Assembly: GCA_036172665.1 (NCBI GenBank)
Contig: CM069874.1
Location: 47,970,707-48,034,706, forward strand
Origin: Prosopocoilus inquinatus
Taxonomy: Eukaryota; Arthropoda; Insecta; Coleoptera; Lucanidae
Length of the DNA: 64,000 bases
Direction of reading: 5' to 3'
Shown in pieces: positions 4,336 through 58,334 of this stretch; the first letter of the stretch is position 1, and each line of letters begins with the position of its first letter. Below the pieces are notes generated by a model, which was not told where the DNA came from, made no database searches, and saw only the letters and a program-made list of their open reading frames with translations. The translations under genes were made by a program, and so were the position numbers.

Positions 4336-4903
4336 GTACCATCGCGACCAGAAAATACTGGGACAAAGCAGTTGTCATTTTTGACGGAAATCAAGCAAAA
4401 TGTCATGGTTTAAACGGTGGTTTAAAGTAGTGTTGTGAGTCGCTAAAATTACCACGTTACCTTACGGTAAATTTCCAATGTTACCGGTAAGATAACATTC
4501 ATTTGTTACCGTTAGTTACCGTTTGTTATCTCTGTCGTCAAAATAATGTAATTTCGAGTTACACACTTGCAACATTCAAGTAAAACAATGAAAGAAATGG
4601 CCGAGGAATATTTTTGATTATTTAGGAAAAACGTAAATACTAAAAAAATGGAAATAAATATTTCATACCCTAAAATGACTTTCATTTACGCATGAATTTA
4701 TTTAGTGGAAATACATAATATTAAATATTGTAAACCTTATTTTTAACAAAAGCCAAAAATATAATACGTATTCGGTAGGTATCAAATTAATCTGAAAAGT
4801 GAATAAATATCACATTTTTAATTAAAATGTAATTGGTAACTTTGGATCTAGATGTCGCCATTTGAGCTGTAATTGGTAATATTACGGTAACATTACCGAT
4901 AAG

Positions 4904-5324
4904 AAAAATTTTGTGCAAATCGTTTTTGATTGCAGTGAGAACCTCGAGCAGCCTCTGGACAGCTGTTTCAGCCCTGCTTGGGGCTTCTTCAGCAGAAACG
5001 TAGCTCGACATTCCCACTGCAGACCAAAAACGACTTGCCCAATTTATTCGCAAATGCGATGTAAGAATGATGAACATATAAAATAGCGACATCTTACTAT
5101 CGCTTTTTGACCTAACATTGCAGTAGGATAGACAAATTGAAGCGGGATTTGCTCCTAATGAGTCCCCCATGCAAGGCGGCCATGCTTGCTGTCATTATGC
5201 TTTGACAGCAAGCATGGCCGCCTTGCATGGGGGACTCATTAGGAGCAAATCCCGCTTCAATTTGTCTATCCTACTGCAATGTTAGGTCAAAAAGCGATAG
5301 TAAGATGTCGCTATTTTATATGTT
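4904..5324 (-). mobile_element. Retrozyme-like repeat, copy 1, with hammerhead motif
   Basis: The insertion is flanked by a 13-bp direct duplication CATTACCGATAAG (4891-4903 and 5325-5337). It consists of a head (4904 to about 5070) carrying a hammerhead ribozyme motif on the - strand, a tail (about 5070-5194), an 8-nt loop and the same tail in inverse (5203-5324). The two tail arms are about 122-125 bp and look identical by eye. Related copies are at 15928-16590 and 52269-52526. There is no reverse transcriptase, so it would be non-autonomous. Long variable duplications point to target-primed reverse transcription, as in Penelope-like elements or retrozymes. The snap-back tail is unusual. 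Confidence 0.65.
4951..4999 (-). ncRNA. Type-I hammerhead self-cleaving ribozyme motif (intact core)
   Basis: Read on the - strand: stem I strand GTTTCTG, core CTGAAGA (fits CUGANGA), stem II AGCCC-loop CAAGCA-GGGCT (five pairs), core GAAA, a minimal stem III built on ACAGCTGT, cleavage triplet GTC, then stem I partner CAGAGGC (seven pairs, two of them G-U). All conserved core nucleotides are present. The palindromic stem III without a loop is typical of Penelope and retrozyme hammerheads, which cleave best as dimers. Activity is inferred, not shown. Confidence 0.75.
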
Positions 5325-5327
5325 CAT
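5070..5327. repeat. 125-bp inverted repeat with 8-nt loop
   Basis: The arms 5070-5194 and 5203-5327 are reverse complements around the loop TTATGCTT. I saw no mismatch, so the duplication is probably recent. It forms the tail-tail palindrome of the retrozyme-like copy 1; the last three bases of each arm extend into the flank. Confidence 0.85.
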
Positions 5328-5707
5328 TACCGATAAGGTAACATTAAAAATAAATTACCGGTAATTTAACAACACTACTATTGCTGCAGTTTCAAACGCA
5401 ATTATAATTCCCCCCAGGTCGCTGGGATGGCAGTGGTGGTAGCACTGTATTTACAGTAATCCGTAATCCTTAATATATTTTTAAGTTACTATGGAAAATT
5501 TTCATTTTCATTGGAAAAGTTTGGAATCGGTTGTCAGAAGCCAAAGTATTAATTCGATTTCTTCTTTAATTAAACGTTTAAATTTCGTTTGCGGCCATCC
5601 CAGGCAAACGAACCGGACAATTTGTGATAAAAATAAAGTAAGAAAGAATGATAAGCAAAAAGTGCACTGTTTCGGCTATCACAGCCTTGCGGCCTCACTA
5701 AGCGCCG

Positions 5708-8757: not shown

Positions 8758-9918
8758 ATGTCAGAGAAGTCACAGTTAATTTCAAAATATCAGCAATTGC
8801 TTCGCGACTTGAAGACAACTGTAGAAGGATTGCTAATAAATCAAGCAGCAAACGTTTGGTGCATTTACGGGGGCCTAAACAGGCTTCATGTCGACATCGA
8901 GAAAATATTTAAACACGGATGTAAAATTACTTCAGAAAATGTAAGTATTATACCTACAGAGCCGCCTTTTTTAATTGTCTTAACTTGCAAATTTAATTTT
9001 GTAGAATATTTCTGGTTACTGGAATTTCGTGCAAGGATTGGAGTGGTTACATCCTGATTCTTTAAAATCAACTCTAAACATAGACTATGAATACAAGCCT
9101 TACGTTCCTCAGCATTTGAAAAATGACAAAGCCTCAATTTGGCTGTACAGATGTCTGGAGAATCATTCTCTTTCTCAGAAACTCTCTTGGTTGCTCTCAG
9201 ATAAGTCTCACCTAATTAGTTGCTACCAATCACAAGCTTTCCTCTGTCAGCCGAAGTATGCCGAAGCAACTTTGATTTGCTTGCGTGCCGTCGAAAGAAA
9301 CCAGCCCAGTTTGATTTCGGAAATTGATCCCTGCTTATTTCTATGCAAGCCAAGCGCCCAAGCCTATCACAAAACGCACAGGAGATGCACATCTTTTCCA
9401 GATGCACACTTTAAAGCAGCTCACAAATCGGAATGTGTGAAGCAGAAACTTAACAAAACTAACGTAGAGATTAAGTTGAGAACTTGGAATAGCATGCCAA
9501 ATTTAACAATGGAATATGCGAGGAGCAATTTGAACGATGCGAATTCTTCCACCCTAATTAGTAACAAGCGCAGGATCACAATGCAGGGCAATCAACAAAA
9601 ACTTTTAAAAAGTGTGGATGATGTTGAAAAACCTACAAATAAGAATATTGAGGAAATTAAACATCTTATTATAAATAGTGAAAACATCGTAGAGCACACA
9701 GCACCGTCCACAAGCATGGAACATAAAAAGAATGAGGATTTTGCCATTAAGTCTTTGCCTGACATGAGGTCACCAAACAGGGGAAGTCATCTCTTAGCTA
9801 GATCTGTCCCAGATTATGGGTTTTTAAACGCTTTAGCTGGAGAAAAGGATTTCAAGAATAAACCAAAGAAAACTTTTATTGAAGATGGAGGCAAAAGTGT
9901 CCTACCAATGGCCACAGG
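8758..9918 (+). CDS. RUBCN: RUBCN exons 1-2: RUN domain block
   Basis: Exon 1 (8758-8940, 61 codons, phase 0 donor GTAAGT) starts [13 protein letters not shown]. Intron 1 is 64 nt. Exon 2 (9005-9918) completes the RUN domain ([30 protein letters not shown]) and runs into a Ser/Asn/Lys-rich linker. Exon 2 ends in phase 2 at GG/GTAAGT. The first complete codon of the next exon, 22 kb away, continues the frame exactly, which is strong support for joining them. The start is the first ATG after an in-frame stop at 8737. Confidence 0.92.
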
Positions 9919-12900
9919 GTAAGTTAATATTTTATTGTGTCTAAAGAATTTTAAGAATCTGAACTCTTTAAACAGGAGAACTTGAAATATATTTAAACTG
10001 AAACTCATGTTTTCTTTGCTGACTAATGTAACAATGCCCTTCCAAGGCAATTCAGTCTCAATCATGAAAGAAGCGACTTGACAAAATAAAATTTTTAGTA
10101 TTTAATGTTACACTTTATGAAACCCAAATGACTCATTTGTGTTTAATAATATAAGCCATTAAAGCACCAAAGTAGAAAGAAATTATCAATATGACTATCA
10201 ATTGTGATATCTGAATTATGTTTAACTGCACAGCACACCTGTTTTGCTGCTTATGGTTAAGATAAATGCATAAAATGTATAGTGTCTGATTATTACTAAA
10301 TCATCCTGATAATGATTTAGTCATTACTAAGTAGAAGGTAGTGAGTAATAAATAAGAATGTAAGCTTACTTTTACTTACACAAATATTTCAAACAACACT
10401 TTTTCTGACGTAAATTTAATAATACCAAGAATTTTGCAGAGTGGCTGCAATTACGGATTGACTTACGGATGATAGACAATAATTAATAAAGTTCAGTCAT
10501 TATTTCAGTTTCAAAAATGGTGACTCATGTTAGCCATACAACTAAGGCAAAAATAAAAAATGAATTTATCTCAAAAAAAAGCTAATTTGTTTGTGATTCG
10601 TAGATGACAGTTCATAATTACAGCTAACCAGCAAAAGTTTTAGTATCGTTAAATTCCGTCAAGAAAAGTGTCCACGTTTTTTTGGCGGCGACTGTACGTA
10701 TTCTCCTGTCTGCACACAGCATAAAACAGCAGCAATCACAGCCTCCTATAATTATGAATTCCGTTGAACACCCGGTACTTCATTCCTTGTGAACATCAGA
10801 AAGAAGAAAAACTGTACTTAGATTAAAGTGAGCGTTGTTCTTAAACTGAAAACCAGGACACTGGAAACCTCACAAGAGTAACAGTGAAAATAGAAACAGA
10901 TGTTTAGATGGAGTACTTATGTAAATGTAAATTAATTAAATACCTAATTAATCGGAAGTAGTATATGTGAAAGAATTCTAGACTTAGATTCTTAAGCGCA
11001 GGGTGGCGTAGGTCACTATAATTGCGAATGCGCCACAAAATCCATGTATAGTAGGGACAAGTATTTGGGCCACTCAGTGTTGGACACTTTTTATGCCGAA
11101 TGTACTATTTACTCTTTCTGCGACTCCGATGCATTTAAATTGCCATTTAGTGGGAGCGGAAGGACTGCATAGCGAGTGTTCGCACTTCGCAGAAATTACT
11201 ATGGGCGAGACTAATACAGTCCGAATACTAAATTTTCATACTGCTCGCGAAACAAGTGGGTCGAAATTTCATCCCTGCTTATAAGCCATTCTTTATTGTT
11301 ATCGCAGTGTGCCGTAAACGTCTAGTGAGAATGAGGTATTCATTAATTATTATGTATAAACAGCAGGAACAGATTTAGGCCTGGTCTTTATGGGCTGCAG
11401 CCCAGGGCCTCGTTCAAAGGGCCCCCTTGCGGTTAAAAAATAAACAAAAGATCTATTACTTATATGACTCCTAGAATGGTTTACTATTTATAAGAATAAA
11501 AGCCGGTTTACATCATCTGGTTGGCTATTTAATTGTGAATTTGACTTCACAAATATAAAATATATTCTTCACACTGTTTGAGTTTCTATTTGACTTGCGC
11601 GCAGTGGCGTAAGTAGAAATCGGGCCGTCAGGTAGCAAAATTTTTACCAGCATCTTTTAACAAGTTAATTCACATTTTGAAAAAGAGACACTGTTCATAC
11701 AGATCAAACCACTGCAAGTAGATATAGAATTTAAATCAGCACGCCTCGACACCGCATATACGCGCACACTGTAAGGCTGCCTCGTGAGCGCTCGGGTGTG
11801 CCTACTTATAGCGTTTACCGCTGGCTTCATCGATGTGCACTAAGTGTAACTCCATCTCGTTTTATTACTTAAAGCTGAACCGAGATGAAAATACATTCAG
11901 TACATGCTAGTGCAGCCAGCGAGAAACGTTATTAATATGGTGGAATCAGTATGTGACAGAAGCGATAAGAACTGTCAAAATTTTAAGATGAGCAAAATCC
12001 GGACAATTTAACATATCATGTGTATTTATCCAGAGTTGGGCAAATTGTATTCATGAGTATGAGTACTGATTATGAGTACTATATAATCATACTCTCAGTA
12101 TGAGTAAAGTCTATGTAATCAGTAATTATATAAAGTGAGAATGAGTAAAGTACTTGTAATCAGTAATCATAAATAATGAGTACGTGTAATCAGTAATCAT
12201 ATAAAATGAGTATGAGTACAGGTAAAAAGTAATGGCATGCTGTTTCAATTTTTCGTCTCCGATCACTTTGACATTATTTAGCGGCATAATGCTGGTCCGC
12301 TGGGTCCCGCAATTCGCAATGTTTGTGCGTTTGCAAATTCGTCCGAAGTGTCCTGTACAGTGTCTCATCTTCTATGGCATTCTATAGATATTTCCGATAT
12401 CTAAATATGATAAGAAAACTTGTTATTCAACTTTTAACTAAATTATTTCTTTATTAAATCACATAAAAATTCGTAATAGTCCACAAGCAAACCCAACTGT
12501 GTATATCGTAAGTGCCATTTTTTCTGAGCTACAGGAAAATATTATGGGTTCTCAAATATTATTGAATTTTATGTCCCCAAGGCAAAATACGATAAAAATT
12601 TACATTGCATTCGCTAGTTCTCAAATGAACATCTACATGTTAGTGCTACTGTTTAAAATTATGAAGATTTACACAATTCTTTAAATAAAGAAAGATTTCG
12701 GAAATTGTAATTTTATTTAAAAACAACCGTATTTTTTATGTTTGATTTAGGCAAGTATGTTAGCGCACTTGCTTATTTTCCCGACTTTCTTTCATCAAAA
12801 ATAGAAATTTTCAATCGAACACCACTCGTTATAAATTACATAAACAATTTCAAACAGTATAAAGTAACGTGTGTCGCAAGTCTTATAATCTAGACGCCTC

Positions 12901-15900
12901 TGACAGCAAAAAGTACGTTAATATTAACCAATAATTGATATGATATGGTGGATCAAATAAAGCCCAAGATTTTTCATTTTTTGCATAATTTGAATATTAG
13001 ACATTCAGTTTTCAAATAGTTAAATATTACAATTCGAATTATCTCTCATGAACTCATGAGCGTCTCGATTATAAGAATTTTGGGACACACGTTATATAAA
13101 AAATTGAGTTCGTATTTCGACTATTATGAAGTTTTCATGTGATTTAATTGTTAATTAAGGAACCGTAATCTATGTTAAAAATTAAACAAGAAAGCTATCA
13201 TTTTTCATTTAAAATTTTGGTAAATTTTATGGTTTTCGACTGTACCACAAAACAACGAGAAACAGCGAATTTTGATTTAAAACTCAATATTACGTTCGGT
13301 TCGTTTCTGTTTCCATTAATATTGGAGAAACCAGTATGTACAATACCATCGAAAATGGGACACCTACATATACACACATCTTAGATAAGACAAATAAAAT
13401 CGAAATCAAAAGCTTAAGGGTGCTCAAGGGATTCACCGCAATCAAAAACGGTTTGCAACATATTGTTCATTGTAAAATAAAAACTTCTATCCTTTCACTT
13501 TAAAGCTTAGACCACGTGATAAGCGTACAATTAACAACAACCAAAAACCTGAATATTATTAGACGTGCATAACTGATTTCTATTGGTACTCAATTATGTT
13601 TGTACTGTTACGATTTCGGGGTTCGCAAATAATACTCGTCGACTATTCTTAAGCACTTTATTAAAACGCAACCGTTTTAATAAACAGAATACACTAAAAA
13701 TACTCTATAACACTAAGTTATAAATAAATAACAAATCGCACTTCTATTACGTCGCCACTTATGGCTTCGCCTTCTTCGCTTACTAGATAAGAACTGCCCC
13801 TCGCTCGACAATCCTCCTATTATATAGGCAAGCCTACATACTCCAGAAAATGTATCGAAACTTCCAGCATTATTCGGGTACCTGCCAGTGAATTCTAGGC
13901 CTCTCCTAAGATTAATCGGACAGAGGCATGCTGTCTGACCACCCGAGCTCACGACGTAACATTGCCCCCTCCTTAGTTCTGTTCGTCACGAACAGAGTAT
14001 GGATGTGGATCACTTTCATTTTTTCAAGGGGTAGTTGCTGTATCCTGTACACCACATCGTTGATCTTCTTAATTATTTTATAGGGTCCTTCCCAAGACGC
14101 CTGTAGTTTTGGAGAGAGTCCGCGAGTCCTCCTAGGATTGTAGAGCCACACCTGATTCCCTTCTTGAAATCCTGTTTCATCGGCTCGTCGATCGTAGCGA
14201 GTCTTCATTTTGTCGGTCGCCAAGTTGATATTACGTCGCACGTACTCGTATTTTTAATTGAATGGTTTGGAGTTGCTTCATATGTGCATCACCAAAACGC
14301 ATTTCTAAATTCTCCACCAGTTGATCAAAATTGTTTTGGGACTTCCTCAGGAATGGTCTGTAAGGCATTCAATGCTGGACCTCGCAGAGACAAAATGAGT
14401 GCTGCAGCTTTGTCACAGTTATTCCACCCATTCCCATCAGCAGCAATTTTGAACAGCCGAATGAAAGTAGACCACGGTAAATCGCCTTCAAATTTCGGGG
14501 GTTTGAATTTCTGACTTGACGATCCGGCTGATGGTGCAATGGTACAACCAAGCTCTACTTTATGCAGTTGTTTCGCCAAGTCTTCTAGTTTATCCTTGAA
14601 CTGAATCTTTATTCCACCAAATTTTTCGTCAAGTTTATCATCGAATTCAAACTTCATAACCTTAATTGCACTCTCAAACTGAACTCTGACATCTTCAATT
14701 CTGTTGTCAATTTTCTCGTCACATTCGGTTTTAAGATCTTCAATCTTTTCATCGATTTGAACCTTCATGCTTTCTATATTCAAATCGGTTTTTAAACTGT
14801 AGGTTTCCATCTTCATTTCCAAACTTTCCATTTGTTTTCTCATTCTATGTGTTTGTTCTTTCACTTCTAATTTCACAGCTTCACTGACTTCTTCCATTTT
14901 TTTCAATAGGGCTGCGGCGTCTTCAATTTCAAACTCAAATGTTTCCGGGTCCTTTCCTTCATCTACAAGTGCTTGTTTCAGCCGTTCTTGTAAGATAGTT
15001 TTCTTACCAGAATTTTCTAGACCCCTTTCGTCTAATTCCTCACGCAGCTCTCTGACCTTTAATTCCACAAGCTTCATTTTTGCTTTTTTTTTATTTAAAA
15101 TCTCCACTTCTGACACCAATTGTTACGATTTCAGGGTTCGCAAATAATACTCGTCGACTATTCTTAAGCACTTTATTAAAACGGTTGCGTTTTAATAAAG
15201 TGTTTAAGAATAGTCGACGAGTATTATTTGCGAACCCCGAAACAGAATACACTAAAAATACTCTATAACACTAAGTTATAAATAAATAACAAATCGCACT
15301 TCTATTACGTCGCCACTTATGGCTTCGCCTTCTTCGCTTACTAGATAAGAACTGCCCCTCGCTCGACAATCCTCCTATTATATAGGCAAGCCTACATACT
15401 CCAGAAAATATATCGAAACTTCCAGCATTATTCGGGTACCTGCCATTGAATTCTAGGCCTCTCCTAAGATTAATCGGACAGAGGCATGCTGTCTGACCAC
15501 ACGAGCTCACGGCGTAACAGTACTAATAATTTCAGATTATAAAAAACTCAATTACTTTTACTACTCAAGTACTTTGTACTCAATTACTTTTGTATTTAAG
15601 CACTGTGAGTAAATTTGTAATCGATTACATTGTACTCATAATTGTTGAGTACTTTTGTAATCAATTACTTTTTATACTCAATTACTGCCCAACACTGATT
15701 TATACAAGTTTGGTATTTAAATTAGATTGTTATTGATGTTTTGTTTCGGTCCAAACATAAAAAATAGAGTTAAAATTTGAAATTCAATAAACGAAATCTT
15801 AACAGCGACTCTTCTTGCTGTTCAAGCTTCACGTGGCAAAGACAATACTCTTACTTTCTGAGCACAATTTACATGAATCATTTTGTCACAATATAAAATA

Positions 15901-18900
15901 AATACGAATTATGAACAGTAATATTTATTATAGAAAAATTTTGTGCAAATCGTTTTTGATTGCAGTGAGAACCTCGAGCAGCCTCTGGACAGCTGTTTCA
16001 GCCCTGCTTGGGGCTTCTTTAGCAGAAACGTAGCTCGACATTCCCACTGCAGACCAAAAACGACTTGCCCAATTTATTCGCAAATGCGATGTAAGAATGA
16101 TGAACATATAAAATAGCGACATCTTACTATCGCTTTTTGACCTAACATTGCAGTAGGATAGACAAATTGAAGCGGGATTTGCTCCTAATGAGTCCCCCAT
16201 GCAAGGCGGCCATGCTTGCTGTCAAAGCATAATGAAAGATTTTAGAAAAATTTTGTGCAAATCGTTTTTGATTGCAGTGAGAACCTCAAGCAGCCTCTGG
16301 ACAGCTGTTTCAGCCCTGCTTGGGGCTTCTTCACCAGAAACGTAGCTCGACATTCCCACTGAAGAAGCCCCAAGCAGGGGTGAAACAGCTGTCCAGAGGC
16401 TGCTCGAGGTTCTCACTGCAATCAAAAACGATTTGCACAAAATTTTTCTAAAATCTTTCATTATGCTTTGACAGCAAGCATGGCCGCCTTGCATGGGGGA
16501 CTCATTAGGAGCAAATCCCACTTCAATTTGTCTATCCTACTGCAATGTTAGGTCAAAAAGCGATAGTAAGATGTCGCTATTTTATATGTTAGTAATATTT
16601 ATATTAAACTCATTTCAAAGGTTTATATTCTGAAAATAATGTGCGCCGAACTTTTTTGTTCGCTACTGTGCCTTTGACGAAATCAGTTAAAATAAATATT
16701 AATATTACAGAACGATAAAAAATTAGTCGCCAATAAAATTGAGAGCGTTTTCGATTTATTTATTTGGAAGATATTTGACATAACGTCAGGAGCGACAAGA
16801 TTGTAGGTGATGTGAATACGATTTGAGTGTGCATTAAACTAAATGTAATTAAAATATGTCGTTCCATCGTAAAAATAATTTTATATAAATTAATAGGAAA
16901 TACCAATGCTCTAATTGACATTTGAAATATCAATGGACACTTATCAATGATGCTGCCACAGGGCGGCCGTCAGTGTCAAGGTGTAAAACACTCTGGTTCC
17001 TTCAATTTCGTAAAACGTGATATTATGCTCTTTGAAATTTTTGGTACAGTTTTGACATTTAATTGACATTCAAATTTTTGAACCACCGGCGACTTGGTTA
17101 GAAGTTGTAATTCAGCAGCAGCAGTAGTGGAAATTAGATATAAGTTCGATAAGGAAAATCAGTTATGGGAAAGTACATTTGTTTTCAATAAATATTTAAA
17201 TTGTTTGATTTCAAAGTCCATGGCGCACAGTGGTCCAGATTGGAATTTTAGCGGGACAAAATTATTTTTTTATATCTGTTTCCAAAATGATGAAAATAAA
17301 AAAAAACAGTATCTTTTTAATCTCTATAGAAATCGTATGATAGTATCACAATACAATTACTTCTATAAGGATTTTTGCCTATCTTTAGAGCGATTATGTT
17401 ACCTTACAAGAAAACATAAATTTCTCTGCAGGGTGTTAATAAAAAACCTGTACAACGTTTGGCAGGTGACAGTAGAGATGAAGACAAGAAAACAATTCTA
17501 ATAAACCCATGTTCAATACTCAATACAGTTTTCTAAAAATTTTATTTTTTAAAGTAAAATTCTGGATCGATAAATTAAATAAAAAGTTGAATTTTCCGAC
17601 GTAGCACAGGTCGCCGTACGACTTCCGGTTTCACCGGAAATGACATCAACTTTCTTATTTTAAATATAACGGCCTGTATATTTTTACATATTTGAAATCT
17701 ACAGATCATTGTGATTCCGAATATGTACCACTTAGTAATTTTGGTTTTCATGACAACGAATTTTTTTTTTGTTTTTTTTAATTTCCAAAACTATAAATCG
17801 TGTATTTTCGTTGTAATGCGAACAAATAAATCGAGGAAGCCACTCTTTTGACATTTTTTTAACATTCTTATAGCACATGAAATTTTCATTAGATGGTAAA
17901 ATGTTCCATTTGAAAAAATAAGTTTCACCGAAAGTGGTGGGGTGGCTGGCGTTGCGTCGAAAAATTATTATATATTAAATTTATTTAATTTATATATCCC
18001 AAATTTTACGTAAAAGTAAAAATTCTAGAAAGTGAACACATAACGTGGACACCTGTATTGAGTAATGGACATGGGTTTATTAGAATTTCTTTCTTGTTTT
18101 GATCTTTACTGTCACCTGCCAAACGTTGTCCAGGTTTTTTTTATTAACACCCTGTAGAAAAATTTAGGTTTTCTTGGGGGGTAACATAATCGCCCTAAAA
18201 TCAGGCAAAAATCCTCAGAAACCTGCACTGCTTTTAAAAAGAAAGAAATTCAAAAGAGTTTGTAAAAACGCACTAAAATGGTAATATAAGATTTTCATAT
18301 TTCTCCTATTGCAGTCAATAGAAGTGATCTAATAGTACGGAGTCTTTATTTTTAAATTCTGTTTTCATTTTTACTTCTATGTGGTATAGGTACTATGCCC
18401 GCCAAAAAAATCTGGGACATGCAATATGTCCTACTGTAAATATAACGACGTGTTTTTACATTATCATAGAAACAAGCTAAATGGCTTAAAGCTGCATTCA
18501 AACTTATAAAATAAGTGAAAAATGCATGCAGAGAGTTGTCCCAGATTTTTTTGGCGGCTATAGTACATGATTTAAAATTAGTTACAATTGAATTGTTTCA
18601 TGTGAGACAGCCAATAGCATATCCTGTACATTATACTTTATTTCGATTCGCCTTTAAGAGTAAAAAATGTTTTGGCGTTTTCTACACTAGATGTTTATAA
18701 AAATTTGGTATATAAATTTTATATTATACGAAACACCCTGTGCAATTGTAACTAATTTTTAAATCATGCATATATGTATATCAAACGCAAGTAAGAGCAA
18801 AAACAGATTTAAAAAATCTGCATTAACAAAGACATTATCTATGGAATACGGAGTATTGGCTCCCCCTGTATATGCACTAAAAAATAATTAAATAAAAACT

Positions 18901-27900: not shown

Positions 27901-30900
27901 GAATATCGATATCCGATATTTCGATACTTCCATATATAATGCCGGGCCATAAATTAATAAATGTCGCTTGCATGAAACCGTTCAATTATTGCCATCATAT
28001 TCAGTTACACCCTGTAAAATAACAGTCTCCCCTATACTATAAATTTCAAAATACAAAACTAATTTGGAAATTTCAAGTTTCTTTCAAAATAAAAATAAAT
28101 CGGAGACAGACGAATGAAAATCTAACACGATATTTTTAGGACTTTGGCCTTTATGAAAATGTGAACAAAATTAAAATCTTTTTGCATTGTACCGAGCGAT
28201 CGAACTTACGAAACATTCGGTATCTCATTTTTTTTAATGGAACGACGTAGAAATGGATAGCACTTAAATTTAGCTTTCTGCTGATATCAGGTTATACACC
28301 TTTAGTTTTAACAATTTCGTCACTAGAAAATTTCTTTTTACAAGTACCAAGAGAAATTCAAAGAAAATGTTTTTAAGTATCTGAGTTGACCGCAATGGGT
28401 CGCAATCAATAGGGGCATCAATAAAAATTAATTTTCCTCGCAAAAGTCTCAGAATAAGTTGCAGTATCGTACGCATGCTGCATCGTATCACCGTTAATAA
28501 GGTGGAGAAAACAGTTGAATTATTTACTTTAAAAAATATCATAGCTTCTGTACTCTTTAAAGAAATTAACGAACTTCGGCTCACTCAAAAGAGTATTTTA
28601 AGCTGATTTAAAGTTTCTATTCAAAGACTACAATTAATTTGTAATAAAGTAGCATGAGGGCGCTATTTGCGATAGTAATTTTTCCCAGTTTTTCAAAAAA
28701 GTTTAAATGGAAAGGTGTGTTTCTTTTGCAACAATTACAAAGCCTCCAGAATGGTAAATATTAAGGGAAAACCCGAAATTATTATCTTTTTTCATTCTCG
28801 AGTTATTATCAAATATGTCCATTAATTGATGATGTTAGCGGACGAGAAACAAATAGAGAAACAACAATAATTAAACACTAAATAAAAGCAATGAATAATA
28901 ATCATGCACTTTGATCAACAAAGTTTCACTGTGTCGCTACACAATTTTTTTTAATGTTCGCATAGAGTTGTGTAGAAATTATTATTGATATCCTTACGGA
29001 TAGTAAACGACTATTTCGAAATGAAAGGTGGATAACATTTTGAAACTATTTTAGGTACAGACCTTCAATCATTGTTGATTACAATGTATTCCATAAATTA
29101 TCAAAGTGCTTTCCGTCATTTAACACTTTATTTTTCATTACTTTTATTTAGTGCCAGTGTTTTTCTCATTTATGTGTTTGTTTGCTGTATTGTTCTTTTA
29201 TTTAAACACTAGGCTTTCAGAAACAACTACATGCATTTAAACAGATTAAGATCTTTTTATTTACCTCAAAATGAAAAATGTTACTCGATAGCATTTGTTT
29301 GAGCTTTTAGGTTCGTTTTTATCTTCAGTTAATAGACTCGTTTGGTAATATCTCGAGAACGAAAAAAGTTATCAATAGAGAGCGGATTTATATGCGAGTA
29401 ATTTTGATGAAATATGCGCATATATATGCACTAAAAAATGATGAAATATGCACATATATATGCACTAAAAATGGCGAAATATGTGCAAGATAGGCCGAAC
29501 ACTTCAAATAATGCAATAACTGGTCTACTGTGTTTTATGGGCATTCTTATTCAAATAAAAAACATTATATTTTATACAATTTATTTACATTTATTTGTAA
29601 ACGCTTATATGAAGGAAGTATGTATATTATGTATGTACATTATTAAGTAAATATTATAACGACTAAAAAAATCTTCGATTATAATTTACAACAATGTGTT
29701 TTTCCAAGTTCTCTACCAGGAAATTTTGCCTTTTATCTGACAAAATATTTTTATAAATTGAAAAACTCCTTTCAACATCCACGGAGGTAATTGGGGCATA
29801 TTTAAAGTGACTCATAGCTGAAAATTCTACACTTAAGTCAATTTCAAAGTTTCCATTCAAAATTTCGTAAATTTCCTCAAGGGTTTTGAAGCCGCTATTT
29901 TTATCTAAAACGGATAAACATTTTTTATTTACTGAACTGCCGATTTTACCTGGAACTTTTGAAATATTCTCTTTAAATTCTTTAACAATTTTAACGGATT
30001 CTATTAAAGACATTTTCGGTTTTTCTAAATTGTTTATAGTTTGTATTACAAAACTGTAATGCATTTTGATGAAGTTCAGTTGATTTGCCAATGAAGTTTT
30101 TGTTACAATATTTTGTGCCTTTGCAATAGCAGCACTATCTTGGGCATTAAACTCTACAACCAATTCCTTAATTGCTACAAAATGTTCAGCATAAAACATT
30201 GCCGCTTCCAACCAAGTTCCCCACCTAGTCAACACTGGTTCGGGAGGTAAAGGTACATTCGGCAATTTTTCCCTGTACAACTGAACTCGTAGGGGACTTT
30301 TGACAAATATTTTTTTAATGGTACTAATTAGTAGATTTATATCAGAAAATTCGCATCTAATATGTTCAGCTACTCTGTTACATCCATGAGCTAAACAACT
30401 CACGTGAACTAAATTTTTATAAATTGTTTTAAATTGCTGCCCGGCTTTAACCATGTAAGGGGCAGCATCTGATACCATAAGTAAAATTTTTTCAGTAGGA
30501 ACTACACATTAGGTGAGAAAAATTTCATAAAACATTCATTAACAGATCTTAAAATACTTAAATGATTAGTTTTGTCTAACTGTGTACAGGCTATTAAATA
30601 AGATTCACTAGGTTTATCTTCCCGCAAAGACCCTATTAACAAATTTACAATGTAACGCCCACAAGAATCAGTAGTTTCATCCACAATAAAATAAATATAT
30701 TGATTTTCTACGATTTTCTTGACTTCTTTTAGAGTATCGTTGTAGATGCGAGGCACGTAATTTTTTCTTAACGTACTTTCATCGGGAACATTTTTCTTGG
30801 TATATTTTTCCAAAAAACTTTTAAAAATAGAATTTTGCAGTTTTTTCAAAGGTATGTTTGCACAAATAATCGCCTCGCATAAATCAGCATTAAATTCTTG

Positions 30901-33900
30901 TTGTTCATTAGATGAAGTCATCAACGACGGTCCACTGTCTAAGGGTAATTGAAATGTTTTCGATTCATTCATCTTCTTGCATTTTGACTTGTGTAGTTCT
31001 GTCCCGACATGTTGTGTGACCGAAAATTTTCGTTGGGTTGGTATCTACAACAAGAACTTGAATTTTTTTAAACTGTCTGAACTTTCAATATTCAAGAACC
31101 AAGCAAATATTTACCTAAGGAGGAAGAAAACAAACTTAAAACTTACCATTTTACTACAGACTTTACAGAATACGCTTCCATTGGTGTAAGTAAGCTCGGG
31201 ATAGCTTCTGATCCAGGAATTAACCAGGCTCGAATTGTCTTTCGGCATATTGCACTTCTCACCAAACAAAAATACTTTTACGGAAGAACTAAACGTTCGC
31301 AGCAATAACCGACTAATAATCCGTGAAGAAGTGATGAAACAATATTGCAAACATGAACGCCCCACCGCATCGTTAAGAAAGTACTTGGAAATCCCTAATT
31401 CACTACTTGGAAAATTCTGCCTGCTTAAGCCTAAGAAGGGTGTAAACTAGACCCTAATTAATGCAACAACATGTTCTGACGAATTAAGAATTCAGGAAAA
31501 TATTTACTCACTTCGACACAAATTCTTTCAAATATGCATATATATGCACGTTTTTAAGAAATATGCGAAAATTGAACAAAATGCTCAAATATGCAAAATA
31601 TGCATGCAATATGCATTTAGCATAGAATCCGCTCTTTAGTTATAAGCCATGAAACTTAAAAGTTATGTAAAATTTAGAAAATGGAAAGCTTAAGTTGATC
31701 CTGCATTTAGTTCATCGGCGGCATTGTTGTTTTCGTTTAGTCCACAGCTAATTTACATTGTCTGATGAATTGAAAAAAGAAAAATTAGAGGAAACTTTTA
31801 GTGTCTACTAATTTTTGCTTTCGACCGTAACGAGGGCTAACGTTTTAGCGGTAGCGTTTTAAGTTCAATTTACAAATTGACACACGTTTGCGCAAAAGTA
31901 AACATTTGCGAAAACGCTATCGCAATGTGCATAAATCATTTTGCTGATTAGGTCTCAATTAAGGCCGAAATAATTACCCAGATGATGTTTGATACTACAC
32001 TCTTAGCTCGTCCCCTACCTGCTGGTCAAGTAACAAGGTTAGCACATGTATTTGTTGCAGGTACTTCCCCCGTCCAACCAAAGATCAGACTTTGATGTCC
32101 TTCTTAACTTCTAGTCAATTTACAAGGGCAAACGCCGAATTAGACAGGGAAAACGCACACTTCAGTATTTCAGAGGCGATGATTTCAGCCATGGAGCAGA
32201 TTCGATGTCGTCGCGAGTTTAAACTAGCCGATGAACAAGGTGAAGACAGTGATGAGGAGATTAACAATCTCAAGCAACGTATCAGAATGCGACGCAGGGA
32301 AAAGCTTGAAGAAAAACAGAATAGAATTTGGGAAGGTTCTATTTTAAGCGACAAAGCAGAAAGTAAGTTATTTACACTCAAAAATAAAATAAAAATAAGA
32401 TCTGGTATGTGACAGGATTTTACCAGACATGTACCATTTTTTTTTCTTTTTTAATTTGGTCTATCTACATAATTTAATTTAGTATCATTCTCTGCACAAT
32501 AAAGCATGGCATTATTAATGAAGAATAAAATTTTTATTGCAGCAACTACGGAAGTCAGTTCCTGTTCCACGTCACCAGGTAATAATTCTGCAAGTTCTGA
32601 AGACGTCGACGATTTGGAAATCGATGAAGCTTCTAACTTATCTGATAATTGTGGTCTCTCTATGTCTATGGCCTCTCTCTACTCAGAGGCAGATCTTCTT
32701 AAGAGGCCTCGAGGTGCTCCTGATGGTGCCTCAGATATTTTATCAGCTGAAGGAGTGGCACTTTCACTCATTAGTAGATTTAGTGACCGACAACTGCCAA
32801 GGTAATAGTTGAATTGCCTTGCAGTACTAAAGCAACTGACGGTTTATTATCACAGGGCATCAGAACTGGAATGGTTGGTTTCGGAAGAAGATGCCCCTCA
32901 AACCCTCTTGCCTTTACCAAAGAGCTGGCCTATAAGTCCCGATGACTCCGAAAATGCAGCAGTTACTCCTCTACGTGGTACGTGGGAATGGGCGCCACCT
33001 CGACCTCAGATAATTTTTACCTTACATTTATCACCATCGTAAGTCTCGACTAACATTGTAAATTGCAAATTTATGTTGTAACTTTAGTTAAACTTACTAT
33101 TTTAGGAGAAAAATTTTGATGGCAAAACAAAATTATCGATGTGCTGGTTGCGGCATGAAAGTAGCTGCACAGTATGCAACTAAGTACAGATATTGTCATT
33201 ATTTAGGTAAATATTTTTGCACCGGATGTCATACGAATCAAGTTGCTTTAATTCCAGCGAGAGTCATACAAAAGTGGGATTTTACAGGGTAAGATAGTAA
33301 TGATTCTCACAAAACTTGTTCATAAATTTTGTTTTTTTTTTTGAATAGTTATCCCGTGTCTTCGTTTTCATATCGTTTACTTGAACAGATGTACACTGAT
33401 CCATTGTTTAGAGTATTTGAGTTGAATAAAAATATTTCAAGAAGGTCGAAGAATCTCGTCGTGTGCCGGAGATATCGTCTGGGTTTATATTATATGAAGG
33501 ACTTTATATTAAGCTGTAGATTTGCTGAAACGTAAGTAAATTTTATTTATCAGTGCCGGAGCAATCAAACCAAAGCAGATAAATCCGTTCTAAACTTTAT
33601 CTTATGTTGGGGTTGAAAAGAACAACTTGCTTTACTTTAATCACTATGATTTATTAGCAGAGTTTAGCGGGACAAAACACTTTTAAGGCCCGTTTCTCAG
33701 TCGCAGTCTAACCTTAACCTCCTATTTATTCCCATAGTAACGATTATAAAAATAATTATTTCGATAGGAATCAACTGAAGAATAAAGTTGAACTAACACG
33801 GAGAAAATGGCCTTTCGTATTAAATATGTGATAGCGTGTACCGCTCTCCGTTTCGTACTGTACTGTAGCGACCTACTGGAGCAGAAACATGATTTGTGCT

Positions 33901-46639: not shown

Positions 46640-48734
46640 TAGGCTTAGGATAATTATGCGTTTGCATAATTGCATATGCAAATGCATATTTGGAACATTT
46701 TTATACATAAATACATATTTTAACTTTTTAGGGCATTAATGCATAATTTCCTGCATTTTTTTGTTTTAATTGCAAATTTGCGATTACTTCTTATTGCCAA
46801 GTGCAAACTGACATTTTATAGCAGACAATCTGAACAACCAGTGTTTCAAAATCAGAATACTTGGAAATAATAAGAGGACTAACAGTGTATGAAAACCGCC
46901 ATTGTTTACTGCGACCGCACATTATCCCACGAATTTCCAAGTATTTTGTCCGTGTTAATAGTACTCGTACAGACCATGGTATGGGGTAGCTCTCTTTCTA
47001 ATTTTACCATGAAATTCTGCAGAAAATTTCATCAACCTTCAGTAGTTGTAAGCTGATTGCAATAGGATTAACACCTCTCAAGATGCCAAAAGAAAAAAAG
47101 TGTGTAAGTGCAATTTTAAACCAGTTTGTGAAGGACTACGATGATTTTATAACGGATGGGCGTCTGTTATTTTGTAAATACTGCGAGGTTCATGTTATGG
47201 CAACCAAAAAGTTTCAAGTCACGCAGCATCTTCAAACCGGAAAGCATGCAAGTAATAAAAATCGCAAAAGGGGAAATAACGAACGGCAAGTGTTAATTTC
47301 TAATTTACCGACGCCTGGACCTAGACGTTCAGAATTCAATGCAGAACTTTGTAAGGCTTTTATTTGCGCAGACATCCCATTAGCTAAGTTAAAAAATGAA
47401 GTTCTTTGCCATTTTTTGGAAAAGTATACAAAGCAAAATATTCCAGATGAATCGACATTAAGAAAAAATTATGTTTCTGAATTGTATACATTAACATTGG
47501 ATAAATTAAGAGCAAAAGTAAAGGATCATTCTATTTGGGTGTCGTTGGATGAAGAACAAAGATGCATAGGAAATTTTGTGTTTGGTATATTAGGGGTTCC
47601 TGAAGAAAAAAATAAATCATATCTGCTGACTTTAAAAGTGTTGGACAAAGTAAATCATTCAACAGTCGCTGCTTTTTTCAACGACTCTTTAAGTTTATTG
47701 TGGCCGTCTGGAATTTTATATGAAAAAGTGCTAGCGGTTTGTAGTGATGCTGCACCATATATGTGCAAAACAATGCGGGGACTGCAGGTTTTATACCCAA
47801 ACATGATACATGTGACCTGTTTAGCACATGGCTTACATCGAGTAGCTGATTTAGTTCGTAATCTTTATTCAAATGTTAATGTGCTAATATCATCTATGAA
47901 AAAGATTTTCCTTAAGGCACCAAGTCATATTCAGAAGTTTCGGGAAATTTCGGGTGACATTCCACTTCCACCTGCGCCAATCATTACAAGATGGGGAAGT
48001 TGGATCGACGCTGCTGTGTATTACGCTGAAAATTTTGAAATTGTGAAGAAAATTGTTGATGAATTCGACTCTGAGGAAGCGCAGTGCATCGAAGAAGCAC
48101 AGAGTATTCTGAGAAAAAAAGGTATTCGAGAATATTTAATTTTTATTCGAGCTAATCTGGCATGCATTTCGACTGCAATCTCCAAGCTAGAAGCTAAGGG
48201 TCTATCTATACAAGAAAGCATTCAAATAGTAGAACATGTAGTTAACGGTTTAGCAAAACTCAAGAAAAGTGCTGTCAAAGAATACGGGCTATCAGCAACT
48301 GAAGAATATAAGTGAAGTGTTGCAAAATGAATCGACCCTTAATGAAAAAAACGAACATTTAAGTGTCAATGACGTTGTAAAATACGAATTTGTACCAATA
48401 GTGTGTCCTGCGATGTCGAGAGAGTGTTTTCTCAGTACAAAAATATTCTCGCCGACCACAGGCGCAAATTTACTTTTGAGAATTTGTTGTTTGTTGTAGT
48501 TAAATGTAATTATAATTTGTTTCTATAATAACGTCTAAATAAATAATTTAGAATTAAAAAAAAAGTTTTTGTTTTTTTGTAGCAAAATAATGAAGAATGT
48601 GGTAACATAAAAAATATTAGTTATTCTATAAAAGTTAATTTTTAATGCATATTTAAGTGCATATTTTTGATGATTTTAGTGCATATGTGCATGCATATTT
48701 TGAAGTTTTTTAATGCATAATTATCCTAAGCTTA
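46640..48734 (+). mobile_element. Near-complete hAT element, TSD GTTATTAC
   Basis: Terminal inverted repeats of 20 bp, TA(G/A)GCTTAGGATAATTATG, differ at one base. The 8-bp duplication GTTATTAC is perfect (46632-46639, 48735-48742) and the left copy is also the right duplication of the preceding hAT element. Subterminal TGCATATG / ATGCATA repeats crowd both ends. It encodes a transposase on the + strand with frameshifts near its end. Confidence 0.88.
47083..48525 (+). pseudogene. hAT transposase with BED finger, C-terminal frameshifts
   Basis: An uninterrupted frame runs 47083-48315 (410 aa): BED finger with CKYC and HLQTGKH, FNAELCKAF block, LDEEQRC (first Asp; the usual TTD is changed to EQR), CSDAAPYM (second Asp), CLAHGLHRVAD, ITRWGSW. 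No intron, unlike the relative at 29663-31248. The frame then shifts at about 48290-48315 and again at about 48408; the hATC segment with DVERVFSQYKN is readable in another frame and ends near 48525. Two shifts and the changed catalytic neighbourhood suggest it is inactive. The 410-aa frame could still make a truncated protein. Confidence 0.85.

Positions 48735-50405: not shown

Positions 50406-58334
<7,929 letters not shown>

Follow-up and report, generated by a model that had tools for sequence, protein, structure and literature searches.

The window, that is, the whole 64-kb stretch of DNA that was analysed, contains three insertions of a small element that we read, with a probability of about 0.6, as a metazoan retrozyme that enters DNA by target-primed reverse transcription from both ends, a process that may be likened to the activity of a Penelope protein in vitro. 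Copies of the element have a hammerhead core, fixed ends of defined polarity, target-site duplications (TSDs), variable joins and a template that continues over the boundary 312/1 of a 312-nt unit. From these features we infer self-cleavage, a circular template, the two-ended priming itself and an enzyme of the Penelope kind. The element is defined by its fixed pair of start sites and its opposed arms, not by a foldback structure. Both were absent from the initial annotation of this DNA, which had proposed a retrozyme-like, non-autonomous element inserted by target priming. That proposal is supported, and it fitted better after more copies had been sampled.

Insertions in the window

The three window loci were confirmed as genuine insertions bounded by TSDs. 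The sequences bear out the intervals given in the initial annotation (4904-5324, 15928-16590 and 52269-52526), with the start of locus 2 shifted by one base to 15929. Its duplication lengths of 13 and 12 bp hold for loci 1 and 3, whereas the TSD of locus 2 is 12 bp and not 11 bp. It had also placed a hammerhead fold on the minus strand of all three loci; the core is intact at loci 1 and 3, whereas both copies at locus 2 are mutated. In locus 2, the head is repeated in direct orientation with a spacing of 312 nt, and the second head is truncated. Positions in the unit are counted along window 15934-16245. The minus strand of the unit bears the hammerhead, and its predicted cut falls between 54 and 55. 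Core letters (G5, C3, N7 and H17) are numbered by the scheme that we take to apply to hammerheads. The features are as follows.

4891-4903 (left) and 5325-5337 (right), no strand: TSD of locus 1, CATTACCGATAAG, 13 bp (paired flanks)
4904-5324, minus strand: locus 1 insertion, unit 169 to 302 head-to-head with unit 288 to 1 (unit-piece splitting)
4911-5042, minus strand: head domain of locus 1, a hammerhead with stem I prolonged into a long interrupted hairpin (predicted fold)
4951-4999, minus strand: minimal hammerhead of locus 1 with intact core CTGAAGA / GAAA / TC (descriptor match)
Within 4951-4999, minus strand: stem III of the locus 1 hammerhead, ACAGCTGT, loopless
Between 4958 and 4957, minus strand: expected cut of the locus 1 hammerhead (predicted)
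5192-5324, minus strand: locus 1 arm primed from the site-169 side (unit-piece splitting)
15917-15928 (left) and 16591-16602 (right), no strand: TSD of locus 2, AGTAATATTTAT, 12 bp (paired flanks)
15929-16590, minus strand: locus 2 insertion, unit 169 to 312 and 1 to 86, joined with unit 116 to 1 and 312 to 1 (unit-piece splitting)
15934-16245, plus strand: whole 312-nt unit of locus 2, the reference unit, with the hammerhead on its minus strand
15981-16029, minus strand: first hammerhead of locus 2 (copy a), broken by the change of G5 to A
16293-16341, minus strand: second hammerhead of locus 2 (copy b), broken by the change of C3 to G
52257-52268 (left) and 52527-52538 (right), no strand: TSD of locus 3, GTTACATTTACA, 12 bp (paired flanks)
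52269-52526, minus strand: locus 3 insertion, unit 169 to 220 joined with unit 208 to 1 (unit-piece splitting)
52324-52372, minus strand: minimal hammerhead of locus 3 with intact core CTGACGA / GAAA / TA (descriptor match)

Copies in the genome and their target sites

Thirty stretches of 10 kb from the same genome (14 beside the window and 16 over five contigs) were added to the window, giving 364 kb of a 650-Mb assembly of 173 contigs. Unit matches formed 28 clusters in these 364 kb, and 20 shuffled units gave no match. The 16 spread stretches held 10 clusters per 160 kb, which corresponds to about 40,000 genome-wide, a figure that includes fragments and has a wide error. Fourteen clusters are two-ended, 13 of a 169/1 type and one of a 169/169 type (L009b). 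Five are one-sided (L001, L013a, L014, L015 and L024b), one is ambiguous (L021), one is ended by a stretch boundary (L008:1-266), and seven are short or old fragments (L008:4705, L008:7019, L011:7367, L012, L013:1849, L017:7610 and window:13417). All counts of 13 insertions given below leave out the fragments and the one-sided, ambiguous, stretch-end and 169/169 clusters. End positions were read by inspection, and short AT-rich segments beyond the ends were excluded from the comparison of arms. Unit pieces starting from about 148-170 also occur at L008:7019-7132, L012:112-202, L011:7367-7415 and L017:7610-7648, inside two apparent other repeat families with pairwise common flanks; these pieces may be old insertions that spread together with those repeats, or a module common to them.

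TSDs of 10-14 bp flank 10 of the 13 insertions of the 169/1 type; the remaining three, with 6, 6 and 8 bp, have no convincing duplication. Swapped flanks gave at most 8 bp in 156 pairings, and none of 20,000 permutations reached the observed TSD sum. A separate control on 14 insertions, one-sided ones included, found at least 9 bp in 9/14 and again at most 8 bp for swapped pairs. The G+C content is 18% in the 11 TSDs of at least 8 bp, compared with 34% in all sequence examined. Among the other clusters, the one-sided L013a has a 9-bp duplication, and L009b, L024b, L001, L015 and L014 have 3 to 6 bp, which is within chance. Outside the window, flanking duplications and the CUGANGA/GAAA core, two features that the initial annotation expected of genome copies, are kept: TSDs of 10-14 bp were found in 7 of the 10 two-ended copies there, and the core pattern in 6 of the 7 full-length heads.

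The hammerhead motif and its conservation

On the minus strand of loci 1 and 3, the elements of a hammerhead follow in order: CTGANGA, a 5-bp stem II, GAAA, stem III, H17 and stem I. Stem III is the self-complementary ACAGCTGT without a loop, H17 is C or A, and stem I extends into a long interrupted hairpin. A strict descriptor of this order, composed after the motif had been seen, matched exactly twice in the 64-kb window, both times on the minus strand, at loci 1 and 3. The chance expectation is 0.005 matches per window, based on 200 first-order Markov sequences of equal length. The Rfam hammerhead matches anticipated at 4951-4999 and 52324-52372 did not appear at gathering thresholds, at which the whole window gave no match. 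With permissive E-values, the single hammerhead match at locus 1 was Hammerhead_HH9 (14.5 bits against a threshold of 52, E 2.2), and no hammerhead family matched locus 3. Perhaps these models do not cover a stem III without a loop and so long a stem I. The same search returned microRNA matches, which were set aside on the judgement that such models fit any long hairpin.

Constraint was measured on 43 aligned segments with at least 80% identity and at least 40 nt. The 11 fixed core letters differ in 4/204 comparisons (2.0%), the remainder of the head in 125/1808 (6.9%) and the arm in 164/2736. The contrast between the core and the remainder of the head gave a Fisher p of 0.002, computed on copies that are not independent. 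By contrast, the two positions that hammerheads leave free differ in 44-52% of cases (N7 in 7/16 and H17 in 11/21). In the sense orientation, H17 is A (10) or C (9), with 2 gaps, and N7 is A, C or T. The core constraint is suggestive only, and not unique to the core, because 7% of random 17-position sets from the head are as quiet as core and stem III together, and some 17-nt blocks (starts around 14 and 258) are quieter. The freedom of N7 and H17 is a stronger sign of a hammerhead than the quietness of the core. The core pattern was matched by 8 of 11 full-length heads, including one (L009b) in which half of stem I has been swapped by the join. Base-pair covariation in the head was no better than in shuffles because most pairs never vary, and the predicted fold of the monomer pairs the stem III letters in another way. 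Searches for the hammerhead pattern in viral contigs and for the element DNA in plasmids found nothing, as expected of a eukaryotic element.

The sampled heads appear to form two subfamilies by N7 and H17 (A with C, or C/T with A). Their left ends also vary, as AACATAT or AACAGAT, out of step with these subfamilies. In addition, L013:1841-1969 holds a head copy that has diverged strongly (68% alike, structure-model E 1e-5), which hints at an older subfamily.

Alternatively, the hammerhead may be a relic, descended from a Penelope pseudo-LTR and kept in shape for protein binding, in which self-cleavage no longer matters. In the anole element, mutation of the hammerhead does not abolish insertion in vitro (PMC11167929). 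Here, both hammerheads of locus 2 are dead, the head at L018:4343-4420 has lost part of its hammerhead, that of L026 has core changes, and the unit has further blocks that vary as little as the core; all of this would agree with a relic. However, a core conserved beyond the rest of the head, together with a free N7 and H17, is not predicted by protein binding alone. We regard the relic as unlikely, although it is the strongest of the alternatives considered.

Two fixed ends and opposed arms

When the clusters were split into unit pieces on either strand, a common plan was found in 13/28: a piece running from 169 to X is joined to a piece running from Y to 1. Read inward from each flank, the sequence is the plus strand of the unit, which is the cDNA of the hammerhead-sense RNA. 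It starts at about unit position 169 on one flank and at about 1 on the other (in L024a, the 169 end lies at 175). The arms meet head-to-head, and the pair of junction positions X and Y is distinct in 13/13. Thirteen of the 14 two-ended insertions pair a 169 end with a 1 end (p 0.0009 against even odds), and the same pairing holds in 10/11 (p 0.006) without the three window loci. The exception is the 169/169 insertion L009b, which has no TSD. The five one-sided copies begin near either site and stop elsewhere, as in 5'-truncated insertions. The polarity of both ends and of the one-sided copies identifies the hammerhead-sense strand as the RNA. Several arms cross 312/1, and one arm of locus 2, at 428 nt, exceeds the length of the unit; the template was therefore tandem or circular.

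The joins often fall on 1-4 shared bases, as judged by eye. They also cluster, with X at 214-220 in 5/13 and Y at 69-86 in 5/13. Both regions hold GCAG and lie in predicted stems, and they are perhaps pause sites of the reverse transcriptase. The predicted circle folds at -109 kcal/mol for the hammerhead strand, compared with -84 for the opposite strand. In this predicted circle, the sites near 169 and 1 are unpaired and lie in the two stretches between the head and the other domain.

Opposed arms have a familiar source in the twin priming of L1 elements, which also yields short matches at the joins and leaves one end fixed only. The element could thus be an ordinary retrozyme with one regular start and an accidental priming of the second strand, so that no special two-site enzyme would be needed. 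The opposed arms, the short matches at the joins and the existence of one-sided copies (L001, L013a, L014, L015 and L024b) are all expected of such a process. However, both ends are fixed here, and they are unlike each other in 13/14 two-ended insertions, which makes twin priming doubtful, and somewhat more so than the relic.

Snap-back of a single cDNA, the self-priming proposed for rotifer Penelope elements, would create opposed arms as well. Large self-complementary stretches are indeed present in W1, W2 and L009b, and in 6/13 insertions (L011a, L018a, L024a and the window loci W1, W2 and W3), the sequence private to one arm is no longer than 14 nt, so that one arm could be a short-loop copy of the other. 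In the other 7/13, each arm has more than 15 nt absent from its partner, and in 6 of these 7 the two arms have nothing in common. Self-copying adds no new sequence, and snap-back therefore fails for these seven in both directions; it is excluded in 11/13 for one direction only. Even in the six insertions that it might explain, copying must have halted exactly at the second site every time, by chance. Snap-back is thus very improbable. Least probable of all is a foldback or MITE-like DNA transposon containing a hammerhead-like hairpin by accident, which would share the fixed ends, the TSDs and the palindromes of some copies; yet the clear TSDs vary from 10 to 14 bp instead of having a fixed length, the two ends are different sequences without terminal inverted repeats, the joins vary, arms cross 312/1 as on a circular or tandem template, and 6/13 insertions have arms without any shared sequence, so the element is not a foldback element.

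Coding capacity and the enzyme partner

On the hammerhead strand, frames open from stop to stop span 134 aa at locus 1, where the frame extends beyond the insertion, and 104 aa at locus 2. In Pfam, one of these frames gave a sub-threshold match to Yos1 (16.2 bits against 27) and the other gave none. The earlier statement that no reverse transcriptase is encoded thus agrees with the absence of such a domain from the hammerhead-strand frames. The element itself is not a Penelope-like element, because a 312-nt unit is too small for a reverse transcriptase (RT) and a GIY-YIG endonuclease, and its frames contain no such domain. A partner was sought among ORFs of the sampled stretches and of the window. 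Of 10 ORFs taken from the stretches, three have an RVT_1 match in Pfam, in every case together with the RNase H and integrase typical of LTR elements, and none contains GIY-YIG. Five window ORFs scanned in Pfam contain neither RVT_1 nor GIY-YIG.

Proposed mechanism of insertion

According to the retrozyme reading, the template would be a transcript of tandem units, or a circle derived from it, in the hammerhead sense; the unit measures 312 nt and its hammerhead is of type I. An enzyme acting in trans, most likely of the Penelope kind, would open AT-rich DNA by staggered cleavage. Both flanks show fixed starts with the polarity of cDNA, which suggests that each DNA 3' end served as a primer on the RNA, one at about unit position 169 and the other at about 1. 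The priming sites may be the two unpaired stretches that flank the head hairpin. The two cDNAs would then extend toward one another and be joined, which would leave opposed arms and a duplication of 10-14 bp. Features expected of mobilization by Penelope are present, namely opposed copies, an AT-rich target, a TSD of about 8-14 bp and internal starts on both strands; by analogy, they point to a likeness in working rather than proving a partner.

A further proposal, which we make tentatively and hold at somewhat less than even odds, is that target-primed reverse transcription here obligatorily used two DNA ends and two start sites, and that the insertions are its fossils. A dimeric enzyme of the Penelope type would hold, in each of its halves, one DNA end and one start site, and the two start sites would flank the hammerhead domain within a single circular RNA. 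If copies are as numerous as the sample suggests, such a rule would be countable within one genome.

Other repeats and open reading frames

Several other features were observed in the region. Window 13682-15519 looks like a non-autonomous LTR element, in which a gag-like, SAP-containing ORF (14325-15122, minus strand) lies between two 280-bp direct repeats that are 99% alike. In L030, an ORF with SAP and a zinc knuckle lies beside a full pol. Window 29663-31044 and 47002-48315 are hAT-like transposase regions with DUF659 (sub-threshold in Pfam). The region at 47002-48315 has 347 homologues, and the named ones among the 120 listed are from arthropods; aphids, lobster and cockroach are foremost among the named matches of the 120 listed for the hAT-like window ORF. 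An ORF at 9005-9922 with a sub-threshold RUN domain (19.9 bits against 22) is probably an exon of a host gene. Finally, a 309-nt inverted repeat at 13-321 and 1536-1844 (96% complementary, 1214 nt apart) is perhaps a DNA transposon.

Comparison with known systems

L1 insertions produced by twin priming resemble the present ones in their opposed arms and TSD, and differ in having one fixed end only. Plant LTR retrozymes, as described in parts of PMC7229834, are likewise non-autonomous elements with a hammerhead and a circular RNA, a circularity that we infer here; they differ in their type III hammerhead, their LTRs and their 4-bp TSDs.

The sequence features tested place the element with the metazoan non-LTR retrozymes. 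According to sections of PMC7229834, these have a type I hammerhead, a tandem unit and a high copy number, with a unit of 150-450 nt, a G+C content below 50% and TSDs longer than 4 bp. The unit described here has 312 nt and 43% G+C, with TSDs of 10-14 bp in 10/13, and, like metazoan retrozymes, it has no protein-coding region. Its tandem character is seen in the 312-nt head repeat of locus 2 and in the arms over 312/1, and no long arrays were seen in 364 kb. Metazoan retrozymes are described as direct tandem repeats in the same sections, which contain nothing on opposed arms or a fixed pair of starts, and their cleavage and circular RNA have been demonstrated, whereas both are predicted for the present element. 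Among the papers searched, no title or abstract opening described retrozymes with opposed arms or with a start at two sites, nor did parts of PMC6431247 and PMC12910113 mention opposed arms of retrozymes. In passages of PMC7761336 and PMC7229834, the minimal hammerheads of Penelope-like elements and amphibian repeats have a weak or missing helix III, and two copies are therefore probably needed for cleavage; the stem III found here, ACAGCTGT, is in contrast fully self-complementary and loopless. As to the helper, passages of these two papers of 2020 name Penelope elements only as likely helpers of metazoan retrozymes, and one of them states that no motif reveals the helper (PMC7229834, PMC7761336).

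Penelope-like elements are alike in several respects, according to PMC11167929 and parts of PMC3846280: copies with inverted pseudo-LTRs, TSDs of 8-10 bp, AT-rich targets, an internal RT start at two sites, extension of both strands and a hammerhead near the start. For rotifer insertions with inverted pseudo-LTRs and TSDs of 8-10 bp, self-priming was proposed in sections of PMC3846280. The purified Penelope protein of the green anole cleaves both DNA strands, extends each of them and begins copying within the RNA at two sites; these sites match the tail that genomic copies carry (PMC11167929). In that system, the start sites are neighbours that serve the two strands equally, and insertion persisted when the hammerhead was mutated (PMC11167929); it therefore predicts neither that unlike sites are paired nor that cleavage is needed. 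Penelope-like elements encode RT and a GIY-YIG endonuclease, unlike the present element, and their start sites are adjacent (a tail of 30-40 nt), whereas those of the present element are 144/168 nt apart, on either side of the head hairpin. In sum, the insertion ends name the template strand, the two start sites and the joining step, and they liken these to the Penelope reaction in vitro (PMC11167929). If true, the two-site rule would explain two features of Penelope elements generally, namely their puzzling inverted pseudo-LTRs and their optional tail.
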